A stretch of DNA of 64,000 bases from a bacterium. GTDB taxonomy: Bacteria > Planctomycetota > Planctomycetia > Planctomycetales > Planctomycetaceae. The stretch spans positions 1 through 64,000 of the forward strand of contig WGME01000009.1 of the NCBI GenBank assembly GCA_016125225.1, written 5' to 3'. Within the stretch, counting starts at the first letter, position 1, and each line of letters opens with the position of its first letter. The position numbers were made by a program, and so were the translations under genes. The notes beneath the pieces were generated by a model. That model was not told the origin of the DNA. It ran no database searches and worked only from the letters and a program-made list of their open reading frames with translations. This document shows positions 14,722 through 33,692 of the stretch, piece after piece.

Positions 14722-15032
14722 GTGGCCAATCCTCAAGTGTGTTCCAGAACGGCAAGACGAGTTGGTGTGTTGTAGTCCAAAACCGGTGTGATCGGCCAGC
14801 CTGCAGAGCCGTTTCAAGAACCGACGACACGCCTGTCACATCCTCCAGAACAGTAAAAATCGCCGAACTTACCGAGACGTATCCTTCGGTTCTGACGAAT
14901 TCCGAAAGAATCTCATCTTTCCCTGAAGTTCGGAATATGGTAGACGGGCATATGCCGCACGGTCTTAGGGCCAGGTCGTGGTGTCGGCGAAGGGCGTCGT
15001 CGGCGTTGTTTTCGGGCGGGAAAGGATTCCCC

Positions 15033-19574: not shown

Positions 19575-19830
19575 GGCGAGATCCCCCCGATGACCTTCAA
19601 CGACGCCGGCGCACCCCCAGAGCACACGAAAACAGCGTCGTCTGGTTCATCGGCAATCAGCACGACCGGTACACATGGAAAGTTCGGAAGAACTAGCAAA
19701 ACCGTAAGAGTCTACCTTTTGAACCATCAAATATCGGTAGAACTGCCAAGCCATTCCCGCCGCTCTGCGGGGCAAACTTCGCAGATTTCCGGCAATTCCT
19801 GCCGATGTTTACCCGCTGAGGCTCTGGGAA

Positions 19831-21633
19831 CTATTTCAGACCCGGCAATTCCGGGAAGAGCATCTTGTGCGGATCATCGACTTTGTGGTTGGGGTCGGTG
19901 ATCCGTCGGGCACCTCGCCCCTGCAGCCCATGTTGGGCACCATGATACGTGTGGCAGTCGGTGCAGCGGTGGCTGATGCCCCCCGTACGCTCTCGGCGGT
20001 TGACTGGTGCGTGGCACTTCTGACACAGCTCGATACTCGGCAGATCCGGCGGGTGCTGGTACACCCCATCCCACGTCTTGGTGACAGAATTCGCCAAGGC
20101 TGCGGCACGTTCTTCGGGAAGATTCTCGCTGGCTGATCGCGGGTGACAAACGCCGCAGACCAAAACTTCGTGAGACAGATGATCGAACCGGGCTCGCGGT
20201 TGCCAGATTGTCGGGGTGTTGACCGCTCGAATACGTTCGGGAACCGGCAGCCCCGATGCGGACTGGCCTTCCGCAAAGTGACATTCGCCACAGGTGGTCC
20301 GCCCGGCAAACAGGCGGACCGCTGCATCTTCGATCGCAGTCTCCGCAGCCGGTGCGGCATAGGCCAGCAAGGCAAATAGATTCTCAGAGGCCTGCTTCGC
20401 TTCTTGCTCGGCCTCATTACGCAATTGTTGGCGATCTTCTTCCGTCAAGAGTTCAAGAGGCGGATCGAGTCGCGGCGGGCGTTGCGGTTGCTCCAAACGT
20501 TGCTTCAACCGATCCGTGACCAGTCGCTGGCTGAATTCGCCCAAGAGAAAATGCTCAACTTCCGGCGGTTGTAACCGGTGCGGTACGGTGGGACTGTTAG
20601 CCTCGGAGCTATAGCCCAGCGGGTGACAGCCGCGACAGTGCTTCTCAAAAACAATTGGCAAATAGACGCCACCCCGGCCACGCGGCGGCAACAACATCTC
20701 GCCCGGTAATCCGTCGATGGCTGCAACGGTCGGGGTCAGCCGTCCGGCATCCAACTGATGACAATCGTGGCAGTCGAGTTGGACGGGATCATCCATTCCC
20801 ACTGTCCGACCTTTGAGATATTGCTCGCGGACAGCGGCATCGATTTCCGAATACCGGAAGGCCATGCCGGTGGTGGCCGTTTCCTCACGCGGATCGGTCC
20901 GTTTGAGTCCCATACCCAGTTGCATATGCACAGCATGGCTGAACTTCAAGCCACGCGGGTGATGAGATGTCAACTCGGTTTGTTTGGCATCGGGCGGTAA
21001 TGGGGCGACGGCTCGGAATTCAGGATGCCCCCGCGTAAATCCGGCTATGGCGAGTGCGTTGATTCCGTTGGCGAGTTCGTGTTCCCGGTGATGCTGGAGA
21101 TCGGAATGACACCGCGTGCAGGCTGAATCGTCGAGGCTGGTCAGCCGAACATTTTTCCCTTGATGATCACGATGGCAATCGGCACATTGCCCCACATCGC
21201 GAGTCAGCATGTTGTCGTGATGTGTGAGCGTTTCATGACAGCGCTGGCAGCGTAAATCGGCCGTGTAGGCCAACTCCTCTTCCGGGACGAAATTGGAGAG
21301 CAGGCTCGACATGGTCAGCCCCTGCATCAACGGCAGCGGCTTCTCGGTCTGCATGGGCTGAAACGGTTGATGACACGCATCGCATTGCTGGTCCCAGGCG
21401 GAGTGTGCCCGCGTGACTTCTCCCGGTGACGTGCGGCTGTCAAACAGACTCGCCTGACCGGCGCCGCGTCCAAGCGACATCGACCAGATGACAACCGGCA
21501 CCACCACGGCCAGCAGCAGGATCAGACCCGACCATTTGCGGGCCTGTTCCAATCGGTCCACGACCTGATCGTGATGGTGATATCCCCACCACGTGCGTTG
21601 CGACTTGGTTTTGCTGGTGTTGGGCAACAGCAT
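19831..21633 (-). CDS. decahaem c-type cytochrome, membrane-anchored
   Basis: Ten CxxCH haem-c sites are visible in the 600 residues: CDACH, CQRCH, CADCH, CTRCH, CHDCH, CRGCH, CGECH, CGVCH, CQKCH and CTDCH. One hydrophobic segment (about 36-53, ILLLAVVVPVVIW) anchors the protein, leaving the haems in the periplasm. Several sites resemble cytochrome c3/c7-type modules (CADCHRDHQGK). It is the last gene of a leftward trio, 13 bases after the cytochrome b gene. Inference: it accepts electrons from that cytochrome b and delivers them to a periplasmic or extracellular acceptor. No catalytic family (nitrite, hydroxylamine or tetrathionate reductase) was recognised. Confidence 0.9.
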   Translation of the reverse strand: MLLPNTSKTKSQRTWWGYHHHDQVVDRLEQARKWSGLILLLAVVVPVVIWSMSLGRGAGQASLFDSRTSPGEVTRAHSAWDQQCDACHQPFQPMQTEKPLPLMQGLTMSSLLSNFVPEEELAYTADLRCQRCHETLTHHDNMLTRDVGQCADCHRDHQGKNVRLTSLDDSACTRCHSDLQHHREHELANGINALAIAGFTRGHPEFRAVAPLPPDAKQTELTSHHPRGLKFSHAVHMQLGMGLKRTDPREETATTGMAFRYSEIDAAVREQYLKGRTVGMDDPVQLDCHDCHQLDAGRLTPTVAAIDGLPGEMLLPPRGRGGVYLPIVFEKHCRGCHPLGYSSEANSPTVPHRLQPPEVEHFLLGEFSQRLVTDRLKQRLEQPQRPPRLDPPLELLTEEDRQQLRNEAEQEAKQASENLFALLAYAAPAAETAIEDAAVRLFAGRTTCGECHFAEGQSASGLPVPERIRAVNTPTIWQPRARFDHLSHEVLVCGVCHPRSASENLPEERAAALANSVTKTWDGVYQHPPDLPSIELCQKCHAPVNRRERTGGISHRCTDCHTYHGAQHGLQGRGARRITDPNHKVDDPHKMLFPELPGLK

Positions 21634-21646
21634 GGAACAGTCCGGC

Positions 21647-22624
21647 TCACAAATACCGCAATGCGGTGAGGATATGAATCGTTAATAAAGAAACCAGAAA
21701 CCATGTCAGTCCGAGATGGACCCAAATCCAGTTATGCAACCAGAAATGCAATCGTCTTTGGACTTCCAGCTGACGACGCAGGCTGCACAGCTCTTCCAAC
21801 TGGTCGACGAGATTCAGCAACAGGGGCTCATTCCCGGCAGGCCGTGATTGCAGGTCGCGACGCAACCGCCGGAAGGCCTGCATGGCTCCGCCTTCACTGA
21901 CTAAAGCCGAGCGCCGAAATCGCCGCAGGACGAACGGCTCGGCAATTTCCCTATAAAACTGACGCAGTTCCTGCAGCCGAGTTTCCAAGGCGTCTCGACT
22001 GACTTTCATTTCCCAATCGAGCTGGCGGCAATACTCGGCCGCGTGCTTGGCACAGGTCGGCTCGATCTCTACGGCAGGGACTTCAACCGCGACCGTATTC
22101 CGCATCCGCCGGGGCAGATAGGTCTGCATGCACAGACCCCACACTCCACTGACGTTGATGACGAACATGGTCCACATCAACCACCAGGGCCAGGAGAAGG
22201 GGGCTCCCCAATCCCAGCGAAAGCCAATGTGCATCCATGACAGGGGAAACGTAATGATCCCCAACCACAGATGCAGCAGCATCCAGTATTTGACCTTGAA
22301 GATTTCCGCGTTCGGGATCAGGCCGCCCAGTTGCCGCACGCGCATTCGCTTGCGAATTACCAGACAGATTTCGAAGGCCGCAACCATTGTGGCCGCGATA
22401 CCGATCAGGAGGCCAACCGGGGAACCCGCCCGCGGCCACGTCTTCGTGACACTGGCAGCCCAGATCCAGAGCGACAGGCAAGCACTGAAGATCAACAGGC
22501 TCAGCAGGACGCTGAGAGTTTTCGCGTGCCGGAGTAACCACTGTTCGAGTGCGCGGAACAAACCCCAACGGCGACGGCCGGGTTCAAACTCCCGCGGTGG
22601 CACAATGGGTTGTCGAATCAGCAC
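21647..22624 (-). CDS. di-haem cytochrome b-like integral membrane protein
   Basis: Five membrane helices are predicted by eye (about 36-58, 66-88, 112-134, 144-166, 300-325). Two helices each carry a His pair with 13 residues between: His118/His132 (in LLHLWLG to WMHIGF) and His303/His317 (VHLGLTW to TIH). This spacing is the hallmark of proteins binding two b haems across the membrane, as in cytochrome b and ferric reductases. A cytosolic helical loop of about 110 residues separates the pairs. The start is a GTG with AGGA upstream. Between a pentahaem and a decahaem cytochrome gene, it is the obvious transmembrane link from quinol or cytosolic Fe-S donors to the periplasmic haems (inference). 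Confidence 0.82.
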   Translation of the reverse strand: MLIRQPIVPPREFEPGRRRWGLFRALEQWLLRHAKTLSVLLSLLIFSACLSLWIWAASVTKTWPRAGSPVGLLIGIAATMVAAFEICLVIRKRMRVRQLGGLIPNAEIFKVKYWMLLHLWLGIITFPLSWMHIGFRWDWGAPFSWPWWLMWTMFVINVSGVWGLCMQTYLPRRMRNTVAVEVPAVEIEPTCAKHAAEYCRQLDWEMKVSRDALETRLQELRQFYREIAEPFVLRRFRRSALVSEGGAMQAFRRLRRDLQSRPAGNEPLLLNLVDQLEELCSLRRQLEVQRRLHFWLHNWIWVHLGLTWFLVSLLTIHILTALRYL

Positions 22625-22667
22625 TCTTACATTCCTGGTTCAGTCGCGGCCGTCATCTCGGCATCAG

Positions 22668-24224
22668 TCACTCGGAATCGGGGGGCATCGGCCAATGTAC
22701 AATCCGGTCTCGCAACCGGTTATAGGGTTCGGCCAATTGTTCGGGAGCATACCGGACCGGACTCCGTTCGGCATGTGCAGGCCAACGTAATTTTTCGTAG
22801 AGCCCCGCCAGTTGCTGGTGAATCTCCTGCAGCGATTCCGTTTGCTCTGGTAATACGTGCCATTGAGTCTGTCGCTCCCAAGTGGCCAACAGATAGTAAG
22901 CCCGGGCTGCCTCATCCCAGGTCCATTCACCGGGATGATCAACGGGCCAAACCGGCATGGCATCGGTCAACAAAACGGCATCGCTCCCGTTCGATTGCGG
23001 TTGGACGGCCACCTGCCATTGTGCATGAACTTGAGCGGCGAGCGTCACTACGGCATCGGGCGAGTCAAATCGCTCGACCTGCCGGGTCAGCTGCGTGAGC
23101 TGAGTCTGCAACTCGGGCGACAACTGACCACGCAGAGCGAGTTGCGCTGGGCCACCATTCAACCAACCCGTCCACGAAGCCAGACTGGGACGGGTGGCCC
23201 GGACGGCCGATAGTCGCCAGTCGATTCCGTGCAAACCATGATGGCAGGCGTAGCAATCCAGGCTGGCAAACTCCGGCCAGGACGGGGACGGAGATTCGCC
23301 CGCCCGCTGTGCCCGGTCTCGCAGAAGTGCCAGTTCAGCTGTCGCGACTAAGCGTTGTCCATGAATCGCATTCTGCACCCGATTCCACTTTGGTATCGAC
23401 GTCGTATCACGACTGGCTGTCAGCTCGCGAGAAGTATCCAGCTCCTCATCCTGCCAATGGGGCGGAAGCCGCTCGACATATGTCTGGTAGTCGAACAGGA
23501 ACCGAGGATGTCCCGCGGCGATCAAATCATGATTCATATCGCGTGTTGGCAAACCGTCCTGGGGAGAAGCGGCAGCACCAACATGGCAACCGACGCAGAC
23601 TGCGGCCCGTTGCTCGGCCGTTTCGAGCCGTCGTAGACCACCGGCAGCATAAGCGGCTTGAAGTCCACCACGGCCATGCGAGTCGAGCCACTGCCGACTG
23701 TCGCCTCCGGTCGTGGTATGGCAGGCATCGCAGCTGACACCTTCTGACCGAAAAGCCACAAGGCTTGGTTGATCATGAGCGGTCGCTGTCGCCAACGTGG
23801 GCGTGGTGTGACAGGCCAGGCAACGGGTTTCGTGTTCCGGATGGGGAGGCGACTTGATGGCTTCTTCGTTGCTGAGTCCACGCCAGCGCTGCACGATGTG
23901 TCGTGACCGGGCGGTCAGCAAGGTCCGATAGGCCCGTGAATGAGGATCATAGTGATTCCAGAACGTCGCCGCATTTTTTAGCTGAGCGGGGATGATCGCG
24001 AGCTGATCGAGAGAACCAGCAACCGCCTGACGGTCGGGCCCACCGTGGCATCCGCGTGCCGTGCATGAACTTCGACCGACGAAAGTCTCCACGCCAGCTG
24101 GAGTAGAAAACTGTGGGCGGGGGGGAGTCGTTTCAGCGGCGGGAACCGTGGCGCAGAGGACCAGCATGCTGGCGATCCATGCCAGACGCACCTTGCCATC
24201 AATCGGCCATACCCCGGGACGCAC
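22668..24224 (-). CDS. pentahaem c-type cytochrome (cytochrome c554-like)
   Basis: After a signal sequence (AWIASMLVLCATVPAAE), this 518-residue protein has four CxxCH motifs (CLACH, CDACH, CVGCH, CYACH) and one atypical CTARGCH (C-x4-CH), giving up to five haems. The spacing and the phrase GVSCDACH recall the cytochrome c554 / hydroxylamine-oxidoreductase-like multihaem superfamily. The C-terminal 200 residues are helical and haem-free. It is the first gene of the leftward operon (GTG start, GAGGG about ten bases upstream) and is divergent from the NuoEF-like gene. It is probably a periplasmic electron carrier or terminal reductase; no substrate can be named. Confidence 0.85.
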   Translation of the reverse strand: MRPGVWPIDGKVRLAWIASMLVLCATVPAAETTPPRPQFSTPAGVETFVGRSSCTARGCHGGPDRQAVAGSLDQLAIIPAQLKNAATFWNHYDPHSRAYRTLLTARSRHIVQRWRGLSNEEAIKSPPHPEHETRCLACHTTPTLATATAHDQPSLVAFRSEGVSCDACHTTTGGDSRQWLDSHGRGGLQAAYAAGGLRRLETAEQRAAVCVGCHVGAAASPQDGLPTRDMNHDLIAAGHPRFLFDYQTYVERLPPHWQDEELDTSRELTASRDTTSIPKWNRVQNAIHGQRLVATAELALLRDRAQRAGESPSPSWPEFASLDCYACHHGLHGIDWRLSAVRATRPSLASWTGWLNGGPAQLALRGQLSPELQTQLTQLTRQVERFDSPDAVVTLAAQVHAQWQVAVQPQSNGSDAVLLTDAMPVWPVDHPGEWTWDEAARAYYLLATWERQTQWHVLPEQTESLQEIHQQLAGLYEKLRWPAHAERSPVRYAPEQLAEPYNRLRDRIVHWPMPPDSE

Positions 24225-24332
24225 CTTGAATCATCCCTCATCATCAACCGTAGTAGTACAGGCGTGAGCACAGTAACGTCAGTCCGCCTGTTGATGCAAT
24301 GGCGTCCGCCTGAAACTTTTCTCACACCTAGC

Positions 24333-24362
24333 TTGACACCTGGTTTCTTTGCCACGTAGGTT
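24333..24362 (+). promoter_or_regulatory. candidate promoter of the NuoEF/NuoG/ferredoxin operon
   Basis: A perfect TTGACA lies 18 bases before TAGGTT in the 249-base divergent spacer. It would give a leader of about 105 bases before the ATG at 24474, which itself has AAGGA seven bases upstream. Confidence 0.45.
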
Positions 24363-24473
24363 ACTGCCGAAGACAGCTCTGTCGTGAGGTCGTGTCCCAT
24401 GGCCAACCCTCGTCGAAACGTTCAGAGCTTGTGACTCCAGGATGGTGTCGGCCAAACCGCCGAAGGATGTGTC

Positions 24474-26963
24474 ATGGTCGAATCGCTGCAGACCACCGGT
24501 CGCGTGGCTCCCAGTTCGGCCATCGCTGATGACCCCGTGCATCAGACGGTGACCTGGAAACTGCTGGAATTGCAGCAGCGCTTGGCCTATCTGACCAATG
24601 AAGATCTGTTGCGACTGGCCCAGAAGCTGGAAACGCCGCTGCACCAGCTGGAAGAAGTGGTCAGTTTCTTCCCGCACTTTCGACGTGAACGCCCCCCGGT
24701 GTGCGAAGTTCATGTCTGCCGCGATCTGGCTTGCCATCGCGCTGGTGCTGCCCGATTGATCGCCGAATTACAGCAGGCCTTTCCCGATCAACCAGCCGGA
24801 AAAGTTCCCCAAAACATCGTAGTTCGACCAGTTTCCTGTCTGGGACGCTGCGACCGTGCCCCAGCTGCGTTTATTGAATTCCCCCAGCAACGGGAGAGTG
24901 ACTTACCCCCCGGTCAATCGACGAATGCCTCCGCTGGCAACGGACATGCCGAGCTGTACGGCATGCATCAGCGTTCCGCCGAAGAACTGATTCGCGTCCT
25001 CACGCAGTGTCTGGCGGAAGAAAAACGGCCCGATGAACTGGCCAAAACCGACGACGACGCTAGCTTCCTGCCGCCCACATTCTCCGCTTGGGACATCGAT
25101 CCTTACCAGCTCCCGAAGAAGGGAAGTGGTGCCGCGGCCTTGCCCGTGCATTACGCGGTGATCCGGCGGTTGCAACTGCACAATCAGGAATTCGCCGGTG
25201 ATTTCGACGCCGCCAAATCCAAGCTCGGATTGTTCGATAAGTTAAAACAGGCAAACTTGCGGGGCATGGGCGGGGCGGGGGCTCCGGCCGAACGTAAATG
25301 GCGCGACATGGCCGATGTCGATGCCCCGGCGAATACGCCGCGCTACATCGTCTGCAATGCCGATGAAAGCGAACCGCTCACATTCAAGGACCGGGAAATT
25401 CTCCTGCGGACCCCGCATCTGGTCGTTGAGGGGATGATTCTTGCCGGACTGCACTGCGGAGCCGAACGGGGCTACATTTACATTCGGCATGAATATCACG
25501 AGCAAGCGGAAGCCGTTCGCGAGGCTATTCGCATCGCCGAGCAGAATAATTACTGCGGATATAACGTGGCGGGGCTGGGACGCAATTTCTATCTCAGCGT
25601 CTTCGTCAGCCCGGGGGGATACATCTGCGGCGAGCAAAGTGCCCTCATCGAGGCGATGGAAGGGCACCGGGCTCAACCCCGCAGTAAACCACCGGGGTTG
25701 GAATCGAATGGCCTCTTCGACAATCCGACACTGCTCAGCAACGTAGAAACCTTTGCCTGGGTTCCGGCGATCGCGTTGGGGTATTCCGCACCACGTCAGA
25801 AGGCGAAACCCCCGGCCGCCAGTTCCGCCGCTGCTATGGTCACCTCAGCCACGGCATCATTGATCCCGCCTGCCATAGATCCGAATTGGTATGCGGAACA
25901 AGGCTATCGGCCGAACTATCAGGGACCGCCAGCCATTCGTCTTTGTACGGGGGTGGATGCCGTCGCCACCAGCGACGACCCGCAAGCAGTCTTCGAGACC
26001 GCTTCAGGTACGGCCTACAAGGGCCGACGGCTCTTCTCGATCTGTGGTGATGTGGGAAATCCGGGCGTGTATGAAATGCCGATTGGCGCTCCGCTACGCG
26101 ACCTGATTCAACTGGCGGGAGGTGCGATCGGTGGCGAAAGTCAAATTCGGGCACTAGCCACCTCCGGGCCATCAGGCGGATTTTTGCCAGCCCGCATCAC
26201 CGATCCGAATCTCGTCGCCTGTTTCCGTTTCGTTTTGACTGATCAGGCCGGCCGCTGCAAAAAGGGTGTCGACCGCAGCGAACAGGCGTTGCGCAAGTTG
26301 CTCGCTGATGCCGAGCCCTTACGTCAGGAACAAGCCGCCTGGATCGCACTGGGGGAATCGGGTTCGCCGACCGAGGTTCAGGAACGGAATGCCCGGTTGA
26401 ACGCACTGGGACGCGATATTGCCCGGGCTCAAAGCGATCTGGCTGATACCATTGCCCGCAACCGCCGCCTCGAACATTTCTGCAATCAGTTGATGCCAGA
26501 CGGTGCCGACAGCCAGGTGATCGATCTGCTCGGCTTACCGCTCGACATCGATGCCTTCCGAACCACTTGCAATGAGTTTCTTGAATTAGGCCCGTCCATC
26601 GATCCAGATGCCCCCGCCTGGAAACGAGCCAAGGCCGTACACCTCCCCGCCGGAGCCTTGCTGGGAGCCGGTATGGCTGTCTTCGCGGGAGAGGTCGACA
26701 TGATTGATCTCGCCCGCAATGCGACCGAGTTCTTCAGTCGCGAGACCTGTGGCAAATGCGTTCCCTGTCGCCTGGGATCTGGTCGTTTCGTGCAGTTGCT
26801 CAAGGAACTCACTCCTGATGCCTTGACCAGCGAACATCTGCAACTGATCTCGGATCTCGACGAAGCCCTGCGAGAAACATCAATTTGTGCTCTGGGCACG
26901 TCGGTCCCCGCACCGCTAATGTCACTGCTGAAGTATTTCTGGGATTTATCGAAAGTTACCTGA
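24474..26963 (+). CDS. NuoE-NuoF fusion: NAD(P)H-oxidising flavo-iron-sulfur subunit
   Basis: One 829-residue chain contains both complex I-like modules. The NuoE thioredoxin-like [2Fe-2S] site is Cys82, Cys87, Cys122 and Cys126. NuoF follows with the NADH loop RGMGGAGAP, the FMN motif CNADESEPLTFKDR, GGYICGEQSALIEAMEG, an SLBB region, and the N3 [4Fe-4S] cysteines 759, 762, 765 and 805. All cofactor ligands are present, so it should oxidise NAD(P)H. An insertion of about 140 residues, partly coiled-coil-like, splits the usual spacing before the N3 site. Such fusions occur in soluble hydrogenases and NAD-dependent formate dehydrogenases, but no hydrogenase or formate dehydrogenase gene is in the window. 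First gene of the rightward operon. Confidence 0.92.
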   Translation: MVESLQTTGRVAPSSAIADDPVHQTVTWKLLELQQRLAYLTNEDLLRLAQKLETPLHQLEEVVSFFPHFRRERPPVCEVHVCRDLACHRAGAARLIAELQQAFPDQPAGKVPQNIVVRPVSCLGRCDRAPAAFIEFPQQRESDLPPGQSTNASAGNGHAELYGMHQRSAEELIRVLTQCLAEEKRPDELAKTDDDASFLPPTFSAWDIDPYQLPKKGSGAAALPVHYAVIRRLQLHNQEFAGDFDAAKSKLGLFDKLKQANLRGMGGAGAPAERKWRDMADVDAPANTPRYIVCNADESEPLTFKDREILLRTPHLVVEGMILAGLHCGAERGYIYIRHEYHEQAEAVREAIRIAEQNNYCGYNVAGLGRNFYLSVFVSPGGYICGEQSALIEAMEGHRAQPRSKPPGLESNGLFDNPTLLSNVETFAWVPAIALGYSAPRQKAKPPAASSAAAMVTSATASLIPPAIDPNWYAEQGYRPNYQGPPAIRLCTGVDAVATSDDPQAVFETASGTAYKGRRLFSICGDVGNPGVYEMPIGAPLRDLIQLAGGAIGGESQIRALATSGPSGGFLPARITDPNLVACFRFVLTDQAGRCKKGVDRSEQALRKLLADAEPLRQEQAAWIALGESGSPTEVQERNARLNALGRDIARAQSDLADTIARNRRLEHFCNQLMPDGADSQVIDLLGLPLDIDAFRTTCNEFLELGPSIDPDAPAWKRAKAVHLPAGALLGAGMAVFAGEVDMIDLARNATEFFSRETCGKCVPCRLGSGRFVQLLKELTPDALTSEHLQLISDLDEALRETSICALGTSVPAPLMSLLKYFWDLSKVT

Positions 26964-27016
26964 CCGGGTAGAGTCTGTTACCGCGCGACCGAACGATCTG
27001 GGAAAAGAGGACAGAC

Positions 27017-29617
27017 ATGGCTCGGGCCGTCCGTGGCGAAGAAATCGACGAATATCAGAACCGGGACCAGTTCGGCCGGCTGATTCGCGTCACGAAATCG
27101 GTGAAAGAAGACCTCGACAAGCCTTTGAGCCTGCATGTCGATGGTGTCCCCTTACGGGTGGCGAAAGCCTGCCTGGCCACCGACGCCTTGGGAGCCCCGC
27201 TGAAAAACAAAGACGGCAGCGAGAAAATTCGGGCCACCACGCTTCTCGATGCCATCACCCAGGCAACAACACGCGGCGAGAAGCTGCGTTCTGCGGTTGC
27301 CGTCCGCCTGGGCTGGAAGAACGATCCGTCGCAACACTTGTCCGAGTGGTTGGCCACACAGTTGGGAGTTCCCGCCGAGCGCGGACACGAACGGACTTTT
27401 GTCGACGCCATCTGTCAACGGGCTGAGACCGATGCGGCATTCGGAGATTCGCTGCGTCGATATCTGCAAGATGAGTTCGATCCTCCCATGCCCAGTCCGC
27501 CATCGAAAGGGGCTGCGGCACGACCAACCGAGCCGACCAATGCCTCGCCGCAATCCCGGGCCATCCGGCGTTTGCTGGGCGATGGGATTCTGTTCCCACC
27601 CACGAATGATCCAGAGATCCGTCGTATTCCGGTACTATGCCATCAGGATCATCTCACGCCGGTGGCGATGTGCCGGGTCTGTGCGGTTCGCATTGTCGAT
27701 GGCAAGCGCAATCGCATCAGCCGGAATCTCGTGCCTGCTTGTCAACATCGTGTCGATGAGGTCGAAGCAGTTCTCACGATGTGGAGTACCGCGGAGGAGA
27801 ACTGGAATCATCCGGACATCCCTCCCACGCTGCAGCGCGTGGCACCGCAGGCCGATGAGCAACGCATCGCTGTCCGCCGGAATGTGCAGGTGTTGACGGA
27901 ACTGCTGCTTTCGCAATGTTTTCGCCCCGAAATGGACACGGGACCCGAACAGCGCGGCCAGAAGTATCTGAACGAATTGGCGCGACTCAAAGCCACGCTG
28001 GATGCGAATTCGGCGGCGTTCCCTGATGTGCCTCCTCTGGCGGTCGATGCCCAGGGTGTTCCTTCGCGACTCGAGCGAATTCAATCGACCAGGCATGTGA
28101 AATGGCCACGACGTGCCGATGGCAGTTCCCAGCCACCCGGCAGCGATCCCAATCGCCGCCAACCCTTTGAAGTCGATTACGATAGTTGCATTCTCTGTGA
28201 CCGCTGCATCCGCTCTTGTCGTGATGTCCGGGAATTCGATGTTCTCGGCCGCTCGGGGAAAGGGGCGGGAGCCCACATTGCTTTCGATCTCGACGGCCTC
28301 GCCATGTATGACTCCAGTTGCCGGTCTTGCGGCGAATGCATGAAGGCCTGTCCGACCGGAGCCATTACGTTTCACGAACTGGTTCTTCCCCTGCGGGAAA
28401 GCACGGGGACCAAGTCGTCCCAGGCCATTGCCGCATGGGAACGCGATTTGGCTCGTGACTCTGCGACCGTGGTGGACTGCCACGAATTGCAAAAGGCCGT
28501 TGCCGCCGATTTACGCGAGTACGAACCGTTTCTCAGAATTCCCAAAGCCTTCCTGGAATGGAATAAAGGGGCCATTCGTCGGCGTGAGTTGAAAGCGGGG
28601 ACGGTCATTGCCCGGGAAGGCGAATTCGGAAATGTGGCGTTCGTGATGGAACGGGCGACTCCCGGTCAGGACAACGCGACTTATCTGGGGGCGTTCCGCA
28701 AACTCGGTCGCCCGCAGACTCCGGAACAACGGGCAGCCGCACGTTCCAGTTCCCTTTCATCATCAGAGCTGGCCCGTTTTGAGCGACTGCACGGTCCGCT
28801 ATTCGCTCAGCTAGATGCTGCCCAACCAGGGCGAGATGCCGAAGATCTCGCTGGCCGGGTGATTGGCGAAATGAGCCCGATGACTCACGACCGCCGAACC
28901 GCAACACTCATCGCCTTGCGAGACTGTCGCATCCTCGAAATCGACCGGAATGTTCTGTCGGAACTATTACGGGTACCAGAGCTTCGCAAAAAAATCGAAA
29001 AGAACTATGCCCGTCAGGCCCTCAACAATTTCCGTTCGGAACCCCATGGCCATCTCGCCGGAGCGAAATCGTCGGCCTTTCAACGCTCGCTCTTTGCAGA
29101 GCTCGTGGAAGCCGAGGTGGAGCGGCTGTTCAATTTCCTGACTGATCAGAACAAGCCTGATGACGCTAGCCTGTCGGACGGTACCCGCGACGGCATCCTG
29201 CAAGCGAAAGTGAACCCGCAGTGGGTGCAGTGCTATCCCGACCAAACGATCTGTCGACTCGGAGATGTGGCCGCGGACTTTTATTTCATCTACCAGGGCT
29301 ACGTGAAAATCGAACTTCCCAACGGCGAATGGGAACTGATGGGCCAACAGGAATACTTTGGCGACTTTCCGTTGGTGAAACTGGCGCTCAGTCTGATTGA
29401 AGATCCTCCTCCCAAGGAATGGGTTGGAGAATTTCGTCTGTCGCAGATCATGCAACGGGTTAAGCCGCGTTCTGCGAATATCGTGGCCTTGGACAGTGTC
29501 GAATTGTTTCAATTTCCGATTGTCCCTGTCGCTGAGTTTCTGGCCTTGCCGGAACAGCGACCGATCCTGGAAAAAATGTCGGCCGCCATGCAGCGTAAGC
29601 AGCAACAGAATCGGTAA
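27017..29617 (+). CDS. NuoG-like Fe-S protein with two cyclic-nucleotide-binding domains
   Basis: The 866-residue protein joins an electron wire to a ligand sensor. After a novel N-terminal region (1-190) comes a plant-type [2Fe-2S] site (Cys208, 219, 222 and a later VPAC), then a two-cluster ferredoxin module (CILCDRCIRSC from residue 391, CRSCGECMKACP near 434), as in the NuoG/HydA N-terminus. From about 515 a CRP-like cNMP domain follows with phosphate-binding-cassette-like GEMSPMTHDRRTATL. A second cNMP domain occupies about 725-860 (YFGDFPL, PRSANIVAL), where the usual Glu is Asp. There is no molybdopterin or H-cluster domain. It lies 53 bases after the NuoEF gene with AAGAGGA before the ATG. 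Inference: electron transfer gated by cAMP/cGMP. Confidence 0.88.
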   Translation: MARAVRGEEIDEYQNRDQFGRLIRVTKSVKEDLDKPLSLHVDGVPLRVAKACLATDALGAPLKNKDGSEKIRATTLLDAITQATTRGEKLRSAVAVRLGWKNDPSQHLSEWLATQLGVPAERGHERTFVDAICQRAETDAAFGDSLRRYLQDEFDPPMPSPPSKGAAARPTEPTNASPQSRAIRRLLGDGILFPPTNDPEIRRIPVLCHQDHLTPVAMCRVCAVRIVDGKRNRISRNLVPACQHRVDEVEAVLTMWSTAEENWNHPDIPPTLQRVAPQADEQRIAVRRNVQVLTELLLSQCFRPEMDTGPEQRGQKYLNELARLKATLDANSAAFPDVPPLAVDAQGVPSRLERIQSTRHVKWPRRADGSSQPPGSDPNRRQPFEVDYDSCILCDRCIRSCRDVREFDVLGRSGKGAGAHIAFDLDGLAMYDSSCRSCGECMKACPTGAITFHELVLPLRESTGTKSSQAIAAWERDLARDSATVVDCHELQKAVAADLREYEPFLRIPKAFLEWNKGAIRRRELKAGTVIAREGEFGNVAFVMERATPGQDNATYLGAFRKLGRPQTPEQRAAARSSSLSSSELARFERLHGPLFAQLDAAQPGRDAEDLAGRVIGEMSPMTHDRRTATLIALRDCRILEIDRNVLSELLRVPELRKKIEKNYARQALNNFRSEPHGHLAGAKSSAFQRSLFAELVEAEVERLFNFLTDQNKPDDASLSDGTRDGILQAKVNPQWVQCYPDQTICRLGDVAADFYFIYQGYVKIELPNGEWELMGQQEYFGDFPLVKLALSLIEDPPPKEWVGEFRLSQIMQRVKPRSANIVALDSVELFQFPIVPVAEFLALPEQRPILEKMSAAMQRKQQQNR

Positions 29618-29625
29618 GTGCCATC

Positions 29626-30339
29626 ATGACGACCGCCACCAAAATCGACCGTTCCCTGCAGCGAGATTTCATCGAGCTGGGATTGTACGAAGGTCAGGAA
29701 CTGCTGGTTCTCGACCTCGAAAAGTGTACGCGTTGCGATGAATGCGTCCGTGCCTGTGCCGATGGGCATCACGGCCTCACACGAGTCATTCGCGATGGCC
29801 CCCGATTCGAGCAGTTTCTGGTGGCGATCAGTTGCCGGTCCTGTCACGATCCGCGGTGCCTCAATGGCTGCCCGGTTGATGCCATCCATCGAGAGCATTT
29901 TGGCCTGGAAATTGTCATCGACAACCAGCGGTGTATTGGCTGCTCGGTGTGTGCGACCAATTGCCCGTTCGGCAGCATCCGCATGGTCGAGTGTGACGAC
30001 CTGGGGCATGAGCATGAGCTCGATCGTACGGAATGGGCTCACCTCGCGGACCGCTACACCACTCCGGAGGCCGCTGCCAATTCCAAAACCAAAGCCCGCT
30101 TGCGGGCGGCCAATTGCGATTTGTGTTCCAGTCTGCAATCTCCCATCGAACGTGAAAGCCCCGAGACCGAGCGCGTTCCCCGCTGTGTTTATGCTTGCCC
30201 GCATGACGCCGCACACCGTATGACGGGGCAAGCCGTGTTGGCCTGTGCGAATGCGCATCGGCAGCAGTTTCTACAGGAACAACAGGATGCCGCATCGCCC
30301 GGCGGGCTGTTCGGCTGGCTCGCCAACCTCATTGGTTGA
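29626..30339 (+). CDS. four-[4Fe-4S] ferredoxin (DmsB/HycB-like electron-transfer subunit)
   Basis: Four cysteine clusters are visible in 237 residues: CTRCDECVRAC, CRSCHDPRCLNGCP, CIGCSVCATNCP, and a split CDLC ... CVYACP. This is the arrangement of the iron-sulfur subunits that connect catalytic subunits to a membrane cytochrome b in DMSO/polysulfide reductase-type complexes. It starts eight bases after the NuoG-like gene, so the two are translated from one message. It is the natural link between the cytosolic NAD(P)H-oxidising subunits and the divergently encoded di-haem cytochrome b (inference). Confidence 0.9.
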   Translation: MTTATKIDRSLQRDFIELGLYEGQELLVLDLEKCTRCDECVRACADGHHGLTRVIRDGPRFEQFLVAISCRSCHDPRCLNGCPVDAIHREHFGLEIVIDNQRCIGCSVCATNCPFGSIRMVECDDLGHEHELDRTEWAHLADRYTTPEAAANSKTKARLRAANCDLCSSLQSPIERESPETERVPRCVYACPHDAAHRMTGQAVLACANAHRQQFLQEQQDAASPGGLFGWLANLIG

Positions 30340-30548
30340 GGTTTCTCGCTGACATCGTCTCATTCAGCCGCGGTCTTTTCTTTCGCGACATCGCGGTTCC
30401 ACTTTGAGTAAGATACGCGGCGGGGATTCATGGGCCGCTGGATCTTCGCGCATGGTGCTACCGTGCAGCAGAGACAACAGGTCCCAATCGGACGAGTTAC
30501 AGCAGCAGGTTCGTTGTCGAAGTGGCTGCCTGCGATTAAGGTCGGGTT

Positions 30549-33500
30549 ATGTCGAGCGATTCCGTTGAACAACTCCTGGTGCCAGGCAGCCAGGAACCGA
30601 ATGCAAAACAGTATGCGTTCCTGTTCACCGATCTGGTCAATTCCACGGGTCTCAAAGGCCAGCTCAACGCCTGGCGATATGTCTGCAATGTGCTGGAACC
30701 GCATGACCGCATCTTTCGCCAATTGCTCAGCGAGTATCAGCATGCTCACGAGATCAAGCACTTAGGTGACGGTTTTCTTGCAGTCTTTGGTGATGTTCGG
30801 GATGCCGTCTGCTTTTCGCTGCGTTTTCATCACGCACTGCAGAATTACCCGTGGGAACTCGATACCGCTGATCAGAAAGTGCTGACACGCATCGGTATCG
30901 ATATTGGTTTTGCCGTGATTCGTACCATCGATGGTCGGCCGGTCGATGTCTTTGGTTCCAACGTGGATGTTGCCAGCCGCGTGATGAGTGCCGCCGATGG
31001 TGGCCGCACCTTACTCACGCTCACGGCCTATGAAATCGCACGGCAGGCGGTGGCCTTTCTGCAAATGAGTCTCCAACAAACAGGCTTGGAATCTCCCAAG
31101 GTCACGCTTTCAAAGCATGGCGAGTATCGCATTCAGGGGGTCGATCAGTCCGTCGTATTGTGCGAAGCCTGTCTGAACGATCTGGTTCCACAGGCACCCA
31201 AAAGCAATCCTCCTAAAGTCATCAATCTGGCTGATCAGCACTGGGAACCCGAAACGCCGCAAGGCGAACTGAATCTGACGGGCATTCCCGACCGTCCTGG
31301 CTGGAAGCTGGTCCGCAAACTGGGGGAAGGAAGTTTTGGTGCCGCTTATTTGGGAGAAGCTCTCGACGATAGCGGTAACCAGCGTGTCTTCAAGTTCTGT
31401 CGCAGCGTCGACCGTCTCGATTCATTTCGAAATGAGCTGGAGATTCTCAAGCAGATCAAGTTTCTGCGACGCAACGATATCGTCGGATATGTCGGCGCCC
31501 ACCTTGATCGACCTCCGTATTTTCTGGAATTCGAATATGTCGATGGGGGGAACCTTTATGAGTGGGCGCTGGAACGCGGCGGCCTCCATACCATTCCGTT
31601 ACAAGAACGGTTAGATATCTTCGCTAAGATTGCCGCGGCCGTGGCTGCCGCCCATCGTGAGCGAGTATTTCATCTCGATCTGAAACCCTCCAATATTCTG
31701 ATCGAGCAGTTACCGGATGGAAGCTGGCAACCAAAACTCACCGACTTCGGGATTGGAGCCGTTGAAGTCGATGGGAAAGTCAGTCCGCAACGTCTGATGA
31801 TTCCGGGAACCGACCGGCATTCGGGAAGCCGGACGGCCCGCCATATGTACATCCCGCGCGAAGTCTCCGGTGGCTCATCCAACAGCAAGTTGACCGAGAC
31901 GCCGGCTGCCATGCTCGACGTGCGCGACGTTTATGCGCTGGGGGTGTTGCTGTTTCAGTTTGCGATTGGAGATTTGCAGCAATCCTTGGAACCTGCGGCC
32001 ATCAAACTCGTCAAACCGAAGCTGCTCCGGGAAGACATTGAAGAGGCCACGCATTTCGATCCTACGCAACGGCTGAACTCGGCGGCTGAACTGGAACGTC
32101 GCGTCAGACGTTTACGCTCGCGGCAACGGCTGAATTTTCTGGCCCATTCGTTCATGCCTTATATGACAATTGCCGTGACTTCGCTGGTTTTTGTCATCGT
32201 GCTCTGCGTGATCTTCTACAACAACTACAATATTGCTGAAGAAGCTCGCGTGGCTGAGCAGGAACAGCGTCATCGCGCAGAAACCTATAAGCGGGAAAAA
32301 CTCGATGCGTTCCGGCAAGTCTGGAACAAACTTGACCGACAGGATCTGCCGCTCGGTTCCGGAGAAGATGACGCTGCCAAGGTCCAGTTGCTCACGGAAA
32401 TCCGTCACTGGCTGATTGGAGAAGCTGAGACCGACCTCGAAGAGATCAAAGACAGTGACACGTCTTTGAACAACCAGATCGAGTATGCCCGGCTCACGCT
32501 ACGCATTTCCGAACTGCTCGACAATGAAAACCAGGAAGCTGAACAGGACCGGCTGCAGGATGGATTAAAGGTATTAACAGCAGCCCATGCAGAGGCACCA
32601 CAGAATCCAGAAATTCAACTGCTGATTTCTGATCTGCACAATCAACTGGGACAGAATGCGATCGGGAAAGACCCAGCGGAAGCGACTCGTCAGTTTGAAC
32701 TCTGTCTGCAGGAGCGCGAGCAACTCGTTAGTGATCTCACGACAGGCAAAATCACGCTGGAAAAATCGCCGGGCATTCCCCTGTGGGAATATGAACGCAA
32801 ACGCTTATCGGCGTTGCATAACCTGGCGGAGTTGTCGTGGAATCGACTCAATCCGCAACTCGAAAGTAACTTGCCCGAACCGACGAATGAATTTCGTGAA
32901 GCTCTGGACCTGCTGAATTCACGTTTGGCGGCGGCCATTGCGGGGCGTCAGGTGCTGGCCACGCAGCATCCGGAATCAGCGGCGGCACGGCGAGATCTCG
33001 CATCAAGCCAGTATCTCATGGGACGCATTTTGTCTCGCTTTGGTGAAGTGCTACTAGCACAAAATGATGCCTCCGGGTCGGCGAAGCAGTTTCACGATGC
33101 CTTACAGCAGTTCGAAGCCGCCAGTGATAATTTCCATCAATCGAATCAACTGCAACCGAACGCGATCACGCACCAAAGGCTGGTGGAAACCTTGCGGGAA
33201 TTGATCGATCTGCAACTCGGATTGGGTAATGTGGTGGCCGCCAAAGATTTGAAATCCCAGCTTTCGCAGCAGGTATTGCAGCTATTGCCATCGCGGGTTC
33301 GCGATTTGAGTGCCCGGGTCTACTTTACTGATGCCATGCTGTCATTGAAGCTGTTCGAGAATGATCAGTTGCCCGATGACCGCGATTGGGCTCGCCTCAA
33401 CCTCAAACTTGCCGAACAGATTTACGAGACCCTGACGAAGCTACAGCCGGAAGAATGGCATTACTGGTACGATTTGGGCATTGTTCGCGCAAACACCGGT

Positions 33501-33692
33501 CAATTGCTCTCCGATTCTGAAGTCCCCACGGAACGCAAGCAGGCAGAAGAAAAGTTCCAGCAGGCACTCGATGCCTGGGATCAGATTCGAAAGACCCAGC
33601 CTGCCAACTTCAAGGCGGATCTGCAGGAGTTGTATGACCACACGCAGCAGCAACTCAAAGATCTGCAGTCGTCGAAGCCCCAAAAGACATGA
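30549..33692 (+). CDS. class III nucleotidyl cyclase - Ser/Thr kinase - TM - TPR-like fusion protein
   Basis: Domains in order over 1047 residues: class III cyclase (about 20-190), Hanks-type kinase (250-530), one membrane helix (538-560) and a helical TPR-like region. The cyclase keeps metal Asp28 (FTDLVNS) and Asp74 (HLGDGF), base-recognising Lys70 and Asp133, and Arg144, but the transition-state Asn is Asp140 (NVDVASR). The kinase has the glycine loop LGEGSFG, Lys282, HLDLKPSN (catalytic Asp377; the HRD Arg is Leu) and DFG (Asp399). Lys/Asp at the base positions favours ATP over GTP. It lies 209 bases after the ferredoxin gene. Cyclase plus kinase in one chain, next to a cNMP-binding redox protein, suggests a local signalling pair (inference). 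Confidence 0.88.
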   Translation: MSSDSVEQLLVPGSQEPNAKQYAFLFTDLVNSTGLKGQLNAWRYVCNVLEPHDRIFRQLLSEYQHAHEIKHLGDGFLAVFGDVRDAVCFSLRFHHALQNYPWELDTADQKVLTRIGIDIGFAVIRTIDGRPVDVFGSNVDVASRVMSAADGGRTLLTLTAYEIARQAVAFLQMSLQQTGLESPKVTLSKHGEYRIQGVDQSVVLCEACLNDLVPQAPKSNPPKVINLADQHWEPETPQGELNLTGIPDRPGWKLVRKLGEGSFGAAYLGEALDDSGNQRVFKFCRSVDRLDSFRNELEILKQIKFLRRNDIVGYVGAHLDRPPYFLEFEYVDGGNLYEWALERGGLHTIPLQERLDIFAKIAAAVAAAHRERVFHLDLKPSNILIEQLPDGSWQPKLTDFGIGAVEVDGKVSPQRLMIPGTDRHSGSRTARHMYIPREVSGGSSNSKLTETPAAMLDVRDVYALGVLLFQFAIGDLQQSLEPAAIKLVKPKLLREDIEEATHFDPTQRLNSAAELERRVRRLRSRQRLNFLAHSFMPYMTIAVTSLVFVIVLCVIFYNNYNIAEEARVAEQEQRHRAETYKREKLDAFRQVWNKLDRQDLPLGSGEDDAAKVQLLTEIRHWLIGEAETDLEEIKDSDTSLNNQIEYARLTLRISELLDNENQEAEQDRLQDGLKVLTAAHAEAPQNPEIQLLISDLHNQLGQNAIGKDPAEATRQFELCLQEREQLVSDLTTGKITLEKSPGIPLWEYERKRLSALHNLAELSWNRLNPQLESNLPEPTNEFREALDLLNSRLAAAIAGRQVLATQHPESAAARRDLASSQYLMGRILSRFGEVLLAQNDASGSAKQFHDALQQFEAASDNFHQSNQLQPNAITHQRLVETLRELIDLQLGLGNVVAAKDLKSQLSQQVLQLLPSRVRDLSARVYFTDAMLSLKLFENDQLPDDRDWARLNLKLAEQIYETLTKLQPEEWHYWYDLGIVRANTGQLLSDSEVPTERKQAEEKFQQALDAWDQIRKTQPANFKADLQELYDHTQQQLKDLQSSKPQKT

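Follow-up and report, generated by a model that had tools for sequence, protein, structure and literature searches.

What kind of system is encoded where an NADH dehydrogenase-like flavoprotein, a pair of cyclic-nucleotide-binding domains and several multihaem cytochromes stand side by side? The question is raised by a locus of a planctomycete (Planctomycetaceae; GenBank assembly GCA_016125225.1, contig WGME01000009.1), of which positions 1 to 64,000 were analysed and are here called the window; the genome (G000) comprises 6.35 Mb in 42 contigs. The locus consists of two divergent operons that lie 249 bases apart (Table 1). The minus-strand operon (24224 to 19831) encodes, in this order, a pentahaem c-type cytochrome, a membrane cytochrome b and a decahaem c-type cytochrome. 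The plus-strand operon (24474 to 33692) encodes a NuoE-NuoF fusion (NuoEF), an iron-sulfur (Fe-S) protein with two cyclic nucleoside monophosphate (cNMP) domains (the G-cNMP protein, or G for its Fe-S part), a ferredoxin (Fd) and a cyclase-kinase. An earlier reading of the window from its letters alone (the sequence-only reading) had placed these seven genes here and joined them in a single path; all seven open reading frames (ORFs) are found there, and the composition of the cluster is confirmed. We consider it probable that they form one system, which would link NAD(P)H in the cytoplasm with multihaem cytochromes in the periplasm under the direct control of a cyclic nucleotide.

Domains of the window proteins were assigned with Pfam and NCBIfam (matches considered up to E 0.1) and haem and Cys motifs by script; the parts of the system, their conservation, their linkage and the phosphate-binding cassettes are read directly from such data. 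The ferredoxin alignment was used to scan 84,980 species, each represented by one genome; at least 405 relatives matched, and the 80 best were retained. By record title, 52 are Planctomycetota-type, 23 Acidobacteriota-type, 2 Verrucomicrobia and 1 each Bacteroidales, Rhodanobacteraceae and Rokubacteria (some labels of metagenome-assembled genomes may err), and the set overlaps with the other loci compared, in that some contigs are the same (e.g. L083 and L040). NuoEF, G-cNMP-Fd and cytochrome b lie in one string (same strand, gaps of up to 300 bases) at 45 of the 80 loci: 23 of the 52 from Planctomycetota, 20 of the 23 from Acidobacteriota (19 with the decahaem cytochrome), and those of Rokubacteria and Rhodanobacteraceae. 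The remaining 35 include loci truncated at contig ends and others with two convergent strings. The gene order is mostly cytochrome b-decahaem-(pentahaem)-NuoEF-G in Planctomycetota and NuoEF-G-cytochrome b-decahaem in Acidobacteriota. NuoEF is present in 33 of the 36 loci whose 10-kb flanks are complete, and cytochrome b with the decahaem cytochrome in 30. The sequence-only reading had staked its proposal on the two operons being neighbours in related genomes; they often are, or form one string. Recurrence of the set in two phyla puts its association far beyond chance.

A second sample was anchored on cytochrome b and is less biased than the ferredoxin-anchored set. Of 294 genomes from the phylum, among them that of the window, 29 have cytochrome b, and 25 loci were taken from 24 of the other 28. 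Counted by eye, a ferredoxin or cNMP-Fd protein is present in 22 of these loci (at L041 some 15 kb off), and a cytochrome with 9 to 16 haems lies beside cytochrome b in all 25.

Table 1. Features of the two divergent operons (TM, transmembrane; PKA-R, protein kinase A regulatory subunit)
Feature	Coordinates	Strand	Content
Decahaem c-type cytochrome, 600 aa	19831..21633	-	ten CXXCH; PF14522; N-terminal TM-like stretch 30-59
Five-TM cytochrome b, 325 aa	21647..22624	-	two H-X13-H helices (TM3, TM5); ~130-aa loop 4 assigned to cytoplasm
Pentahaem c-type cytochrome, 518 aa	22668..24224	-	four CXXCH and one CX4CH; cytochrome c554-like region
Intergenic region between divergent operons	24225..24473		ORF coordinates; promoters presumed
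NuoE-NuoF fusion, 829 aa	24474..26963	+	[2Fe-2S] thioredoxin-like, FMN/NADH, SLBB, N3 [4Fe-4S]
G-cNMP protein, 866 aa	27017..29617	+	HoxU/NuoG-type [2Fe-2S] and 2x[4Fe-4S], then tandem PKA-R-like cNMP domains
cNMP domain A, ~aa 497-646	28505..28966	+	phosphate-binding cassette G617-E618...R627-T-A629
cNMP domain B, approximate limits	29084..29551	+	cassette FGD instead of FGE in window; R818-S-A820
4x[4Fe-4S] ferredoxin, 237 aa	29626..30339	+	DmsB/FdhB-like; no TM-like stretch
Class III cyclase, Ser/Thr kinase, one TM-like stretch and TPR-like tail, 1047 aa	30549..33692	+	Pfam; TPR below cut-off

The G-cNMP protein had been described as a NuoG-like Fe-S protein with two cNMP domains; the cNMP pair stands, while the likeness to NuoG is limited to the N-terminal, HoxU-like part. 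Its [2Fe-2S] site (Cys 208/219/222/242) and two [4Fe-4S] sites (Cys 391/394/397/401 and 435/438/441/445) are invariant in 47 sequences, among whose conserved positions the N5-type His-Cys3 site does not occur; no Mo-type domain was matched. Domain A keeps residues G617, E618, R627 and A629 without exception in 25 sequences drawn from all subtypes (see below), and likewise in 30; in the 47 sequences of subtype I, G617, E618 and R627 are invariant and A629 nearly so. In domain B the same 47 sequences keep G782, R818 and A820 invariant; E783 is nearly invariant in subtype I and is Asp in the window. The protein belongs to the cyclic-nucleotide-binding domain family PF00027 by score (65.1 bits, cut-off 27.5) and by the cassette G-E...R-x-A, and is predicted to bind a cNMP. 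The best PDB profile matches of the tandem are cGMP-dependent protein kinase (PKG; E 2.8e-30) and yeast PKA-R (E 1.1e-27). A structural model (predicted local distance difference test score (pLDDT) 70.2, with poor linkers) matches PKG/PKA-R in one part and HydA and the alpha subunit of formate dehydrogenase (FDH) in another. The nucleotide pockets, whose prediction the sequence-only reading had proposed as a check, keep the cassette, and the tandem agrees with PKA-R/PKG in profile and fold. Only two genes of the window's genome match cNMP domains (E up to 1e-5). The ferredoxin has 16 Cys that are invariant in 19 sequences and fit four [4Fe-4S] clusters, as had been claimed. At 75 of the 80 loci G, the cNMP domains and the ferredoxin form one chain (the exceptions are L063, L074, L120, L126 and L131); in the window and in L063 the ferredoxin is separate from G-cNMP. 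The cNMP domains precede the ferredoxin in the proteins examined.

The cyclase-kinase, in which both claimed domains are matched, is proposed as the source of the cNMP ligand. Class III cyclases (PF00211) were searched genome-wide in 67 of 75 family genomes with cytochrome b (G227, G295, G306, G318, G339, G348, G368 and G378, with weak or partial cytochrome b matches, were left out), giving at least 292 matches in 487 Mb, or 0.60 per Mb. In 14 genomes hand-picked for contiguity (not strictly the most contiguous), which have 2-6 such cyclases each, one lies within ~10 kb of cytochrome b in 11 (G000, G304, G152, G048, G069, G181, G291, G417, G359, G407 and G344), against 0.11 expected; it is not near cytochrome b in G333 and G137 and is 31 kb away in G425. 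Six of the 14 belong to one genus (g3), and by genus the count is 6 of 9. The searched genomes with 110 contigs or fewer number 17, and 12 of them have a linked cyclase, G216 being the additional one; G335 and G374, which belong to subtype III, have none. The other 53 genomes, mostly fragmented, include at least 5 with a linked cyclase (G367, G216, G413, G403 and G408), and G302 by our own cyclase-domain model. In total this rare cyclase is linked in at least 17 of the 67 genomes, against ~0.9 expected, which supports the earlier inclusion of the adjacent cyclase in the system. At the 80 ferredoxin-anchored loci a cyclase ORF occurs in 14, against ~0.8 expected (1.31 Mb at 0.6 per Mb, a density from one family); ten of the 14 lie no more than 1.2 kb from a core gene, and two of these ten (L089, L093) are short or cut.

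The linked cyclases differ in architecture, being cyclase-kinase-TPR in the window and FHA-cyclase in L211/L212. Similarity to the whole window protein finds no conservation, and the cyclase-domain model finds different cyclases beside several loci. In two same-genus genomes where no cytochrome b was found, the window's cyclase-kinase gave kinase-domain matches only. The base-specifying positions, whose role, like those of the catalytic residues, we take from textbook knowledge, differ among the 16 aligned cyclase domains: the window has Lys/Asp, L094 and L185 have Lys/Thr and the remaining 13 have Asp/Gly, a pattern that predicts no particular cyclic nucleotide. The Asp/Gly group (including L212, L223, L195, L070 and L092) is unlike textbook adenylate and guanylate cyclases. 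FHA domains occur on cNMP-Fd proteins (L036:14553-16745, L047:10786-12816) and on a linked cyclase (L212:4497-6236), which suggests a Ser/Thr kinase input.

The candidate entry point, NuoEF, is a complete fusion as read earlier (PF01257, PF01512, SLBB and PF10589), in which the flavin mononucleotide (FMN), NADH and N3-cluster motifs are all present. It is longer than its relatives (829 vs 547-783 aa). Among 72 distinct orthologues the N3 motif occurs in all, the strict FMN pattern in 48 and the strict NADH pattern in 30; the NCBIfam nuoF match of the window protein (303.8 bits) lies under the equivalog cut-off of 558.65. Taken alone, this part is a variant of known NADH modules. The seven-gene cluster lacks the complex I hallmarks looked for, namely the NuoG N5 site, a Mo-type domain, and quinone-reducing and antiporter subunits. 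A fragment of complex I was rejected in view of the second NuoF-type gene elsewhere in the genome (contig C16) and the lack of quinone subunits in the cluster. An NAD-linked hydrogenase or FDH was likewise rejected, as the seven proteins have no H-cluster, NiFe or Mo domain and the hydrogenase and FDH model matches reach only the Fe-S part.

On the minus strand, motif counts bear out the claimed pentahaem cytochrome, cytochrome b with two H-X13-H helices and decahaem cytochrome. The two His pairs of cytochrome b (His118/132 and His303/317) are among 11 residues invariant in 24 sequences including the window's, with homologues 18-33% identical to it; conserved His pairs 13 residues apart in TM helices predict a two-haem membrane cytochrome b. 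Lys and Arg together average 2.2 residues in the N-terminus, 3.5 in loop 2 and 21 in loop 4; loops 1 and 3 have 0.7 and 0.5. These values place the N-terminus and loop 4 inside, with the haem helices TM3 and TM5 probably running from inside to outside; because loop 4 is as acidic as basic (20.7 acidic residues), it is chiefly loop 2 and the N-terminus that support this topology. The AlphaFold2 model has a pLDDT of 83.7. Pfam and NCBIfam matches up to E 0.1 include no cytochrome b family, for the window's protein or a subtype II homologue. No PDB profile matched, and the best hit of a PDB fold search (E 0.52) is not meaningful, long helices weakening such searches. Membership in cytochrome bc1, FdnI, the Ni-Fe hydrogenase cytochrome b and ferric reductase families was rejected, no profile, sequence or fold match being found. 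Cytochrome b thus appears to represent an unclassified family, of which no description was found in the open-access literature. In subtype III, low-complexity Ala/Lys/Pro short repeats (e.g. KPDPKAMLAAAKAK) are inserted in the TM4-TM5 loop (L159, L160, L163, L164, L166, L168, L169 and L171), extending the ORF to up to 908 aa from ~325; the insert is reminiscent of the repeat tail of RnfC.

The decahaem cytochrome is presumably periplasmic and membrane-tethered. Exactly ten CXXCH motifs are found in 64 of 65 distinct orthologues (68 of 69 with duplicates), and 44 of the 69 have a TM-like stretch before the first haem. The CX4CH of the pentahaem cytochrome occurs exactly once in all 92 distinct orthologues with four CXXCH (96 of 96 with duplicates). 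A further cytochrome, with LVIVD repeats (assigned by Pfam on L045 only), ~1200-1400 aa when uncut and 7-10 CXXCH, recurs beside the cluster at L045:8873-12412 and at 19 of the 80 loci L063-L142, in Planctomycetota, Acidobacteriota and Rokubacteria; none of the papers matched by one open-access literature search contained the term LVIVD.

How these parts would work together, that is, complex formation, direction, ligand and hinge, we infer as follows. NuoEF would transfer a hydride from NAD(P)H to FMN, and electrons would then pass through Fe-S clusters to the G protein and on to the 4x[4Fe-4S] ferredoxin, an order based on the roles of the domain families and on the G/cNMP/Fd fusion in relatives. 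The ferredoxin would dock on the cytoplasmic loop of cytochrome b, in which His118-His303 would hold the inner and His132-His317 the outer haem (a pairing suggested by the topology), so that electrons could cross the membrane to the membrane-tethered decahaem cytochrome and to the pentahaem cytochrome. The tandem PKA-R-like domains may act as a hinge between the G clusters and the ferredoxin, with binding of the cNMP made by the linked cyclase changing their spacing and opening or closing the path. The gate is placed between G and the ferredoxin because the cNMP domains sit upstream of the latter.

This one-path interpretation, first put forward in the sequence-only reading, is supported by linkage, fusion and cassette; the optional NuoEF, a replacement reductase and the non-universal cyclase count against it, and these and the further points that weigh against it are given here with the alternatives they favour. 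The first alternative keeps the electron path and makes the cNMP domains sensors of another ligand (2-oxoglutarate, cyclic di-GMP (c-di-GMP), which is bound by Clp, or a nucleoside) or a structural spacer, with the cyclase an unrelated neighbour. We regard it as unlikely, though no other alternative stands higher. Trypanosome PKA-R of the same fold is cAMP-independent, as far as the titles of the structure matches tell. The cassette's Arg-Gly motif binds 2-oxoglutarate in NtcA and is also present in Clp, and such cassette-like motifs serve other ligands in CRP-family proteins, according to the excerpted account (PMC12937710). The window's cyclase has both metal-binding Asp, the Arg and the Lys/Asp pair, with Asp in place of the transition-state Asn. 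Up to 50 of the 67 family genomes, many with short contigs, have no nearby cyclase, and none occurs at subtype III loci, so that the linkage is recurrent and not universal. Against a different ligand speak the invariant residues of the domain A cassette, and cyclases of at least two architectures that are linked ~100 times more frequently than expected in the 14 picked genomes.

The second alternative concerns NuoEF. Within the family, cytochrome b was found in 75 of 150 genomes, and 60 loci fall into three subtypes, some being intermediate. Subtype I, as in the window, has NuoEF, which is present in 6 of the 60 loci and is thus optional. Subtype II has a TM reductase with flavin adenine dinucleotide (FAD), NAD and [2Fe-2S] parts (NAD_binding_1, FAD_binding_6, Fer2; matched in 7 of 60), together with a tetrahaem c-type cytochrome, cNMP-Fd, a short-loop cytochrome b and the decahaem cytochrome; in genus g3 no reductase was detected, and a gene for an FHA-cyclase lies near that place. 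Subtype III (25 loci) has cNMP-Fd or the decahaem cytochrome with a cytochrome b ORF of 455-908 aa, and neither NuoEF nor the TM-FAD reductase is present in the fetched flanks of any of the 25. Over all 60 loci, 47 have neither in the fetched flanks, many of which are on short contigs. Two unrelated flavoproteins of NAD(P)H type in similar settings are the strongest indication of an NAD(P)H input at the loci that have them.

The core (cNMP-Fd, cytochrome b and the decahaem cytochrome) could accordingly be read as a stand-alone quinol- or ferredoxin-linked module, with NuoEF/G a separate soluble NADH:ferredoxin oxidoreductase sharing the operon; we find this less likely than a different ligand. 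Beyond subtype III, it is favoured by the cytochrome-b-anchored phylum loci, of which only 6 of 25 have NuoEF and 19 have none in the fetched stretch. The 80 loci were collected with the ferredoxin, since the cytochrome b alignment is too divergent, a choice that biases them to the window's subtype and favours NuoEF. Of the 36 full-flank loci, 6 have no cytochrome b nearby (it lies elsewhere in the same genomes for L093, L117 and L131), and L063 has NuoEF, G and ferredoxin without it. Against a separate core stand the fusion of G, cNMP domains and ferredoxin, the same ferredoxin as partner in all subtypes, and the strings that join them to cytochrome b and the decahaem cytochrome in 19 of the 23 Acidobacteriota loci. 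L063 is also the locus with the closest ferredoxin among relatives (60% identity), with NuoEF and a G/ferredoxin split as in the window and no cytochrome b within 10 kb; its contig is labelled Bacteroidales, which may reflect either transfer or misbinning.

The third alternative reverses the path: periplasmic donors would reduce the haems, and electrons would flow inward to a ferredoxin and NAD+ under cNMP control, as reverse electron transfer perhaps driven by the membrane potential. All the carriers are reversible in principle, and multihaem c-type cytochromes beside a cytochrome b are also part of inward chains; electron flow from NADH to c-type haem is downhill, and outward electrons run with the membrane field. 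On these energetic grounds outward flow is preferred, and inward flow we place below both preceding alternatives. The ferredoxin-reductase-type reductase and outer-membrane-like protein of subtype II fit export without proving it. That protein (~548 aa, with a signal-like start by eye and a C-terminal Phe) is often encoded near subtype II loci, beside a pentahaem c-type cytochrome; six uncut copies end in this Phe (L211, L212, L223, L224, L226 and L229), and two members have no Pfam match. Among the seven window proteins, Pfam recognised no outer-membrane porin-cytochrome partner.

Two same-genus genomes, one 64% complete, bear on the last alternative: cytochrome b was not found in either, and the HD-GYP gene was the only one of 22 window genes to be found in 20 kb from each. 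That the genes are chance neighbours without joint function, as this absence and the flanking gene order not kept there might suggest, is scarcely credible, since the same set in shuffled order in two phyla is strongly contrary.

The modules of the proposed single system have known relatives. NuoEF and G resemble NuoEFG of complex I, NAD-linked FDH and hydrogenases (HoxFU, HydAB) in the NuoE/F motifs for FMN, NADH and N3 and in the HoxU/NuoG-type [2Fe-2S] and 2x[4Fe-4S] sites, the nearest PDB matches of the G part being FDH and HydA subunits. In contrast to these, the window has no Mo or hydrogenase domain, conserved N5 site or quinone arm, and adds tandem cNMP domains and a ferredoxin. The 16-Cys ferredoxin is like those of DmsB, FdhB and HybA that work with a membrane cytochrome b (in NCBIfam its top matches are FDH3 beta and others, DmsB among them, none reaching the cut-off), but is fused to cNMP domains in relatives and has a cytochrome b partner of an unrecognised family. 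Ferric-reductase-type proteins (NOX, FRE and MsrQ) carry two haems on H-X12/13-H helices TM3 and TM5 and pass NAD(P)H electrons outward; the cytochrome b shares the H-X13-H helices in TM3 and TM5 but has no sequence or fold match to them, and would have a separate Fe-S input and a multihaem output. The sensor shares tandem domains, cassette residues and best PDB profile and fold matches with PKA-R and PKG, and differs in being bacterial, set between Fe-S modules and without a kinase in the same chain. To our knowledge, direct cyclic-nucleotide gating is nowhere known together with a route from NAD(P)H to multihaem cytochromes that runs through a cytochrome b of no recognised class.

The hand-over of electrons from membrane b- or c-type carriers to periplasmic multihaem cytochromes is shared with CymA, ImcH and CbcL, the inner-membrane export cytochromes of extracellular electron transfer, which are quinol oxidases/quinone reductases in the excerpted account (PMC6295460), whereas NAD(P)H-type flavoproteins with ferredoxin input and a cNMP sensor are found here. 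In the survey table of that source the homologue counts are 0, 2 and 0 (Planctomycetes) and 0, 2 and 19 (Acidobacteria), the last two columns being CbcL/MtoC/MtrH and ImcH, and few known export cytochromes are tabulated for Planctomycetota (PMC6295460). Encapsulin family 2b shells also have a CRP/FNR cNMP domain in a non-transcription protein, with no electron-transfer role in the excerpted account (PMC8049743). No description of the assembly, the cytochrome b family or direct cNMP control of an electron path was found in open-access PMC papers; the modules themselves are known. Tentatively, and with less confidence than in the single system itself, we propose a class of trans-membrane redox complexes in Planctomycetota and Acidobacteriota in which a PKA-R counterpart sits inside an electron wire. 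The nucleotide of a locus-encoded cyclase would switch the flow of electrons from NAD(P)H to multihaem cytochromes in the periplasm or perhaps outside the cell, by direct allostery and not through transcription.

If true, this would be a respiratory-type complex whose NAD(P)H-to-multihaem path need not use quinone, and would give Planctomycetota and Acidobacteriota a periplasmic or outside electron-disposal route. It would also bring PKA-like allostery into bacterial bioenergetics, with second-messenger control of respiration through a sensor like the one by which hormones act on protein kinase A in human cells. The carriers are a group of soil and water bacteria, and the system is testable because named isolates carry the cluster: NuoEF, G-cNMP-Fd, cytochrome b and both multihaem genes are present on contigs of Neorhodopirellula pilleata Pla100 (L067 being the locus of this species), Roseiconus nitratireducens JC645 and Rhodopirellula sallentina SM41.

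Other genes flank the operons. Next to the cyclase lies an HD-GYP-PAS-GGDEF protein (33701-35848, minus strand); it was rejected as a part of the system, since orthologues (50-52% identical) remain in the two same-genus genomes that gave no cytochrome b match. The gene immediately downstream of the decahaem gene (17511-19625, minus strand) encodes a protein that looks TolC-like by eye, and the large protein translated from 12184-14817 (minus strand) has a CXXCH close to the C-terminus.

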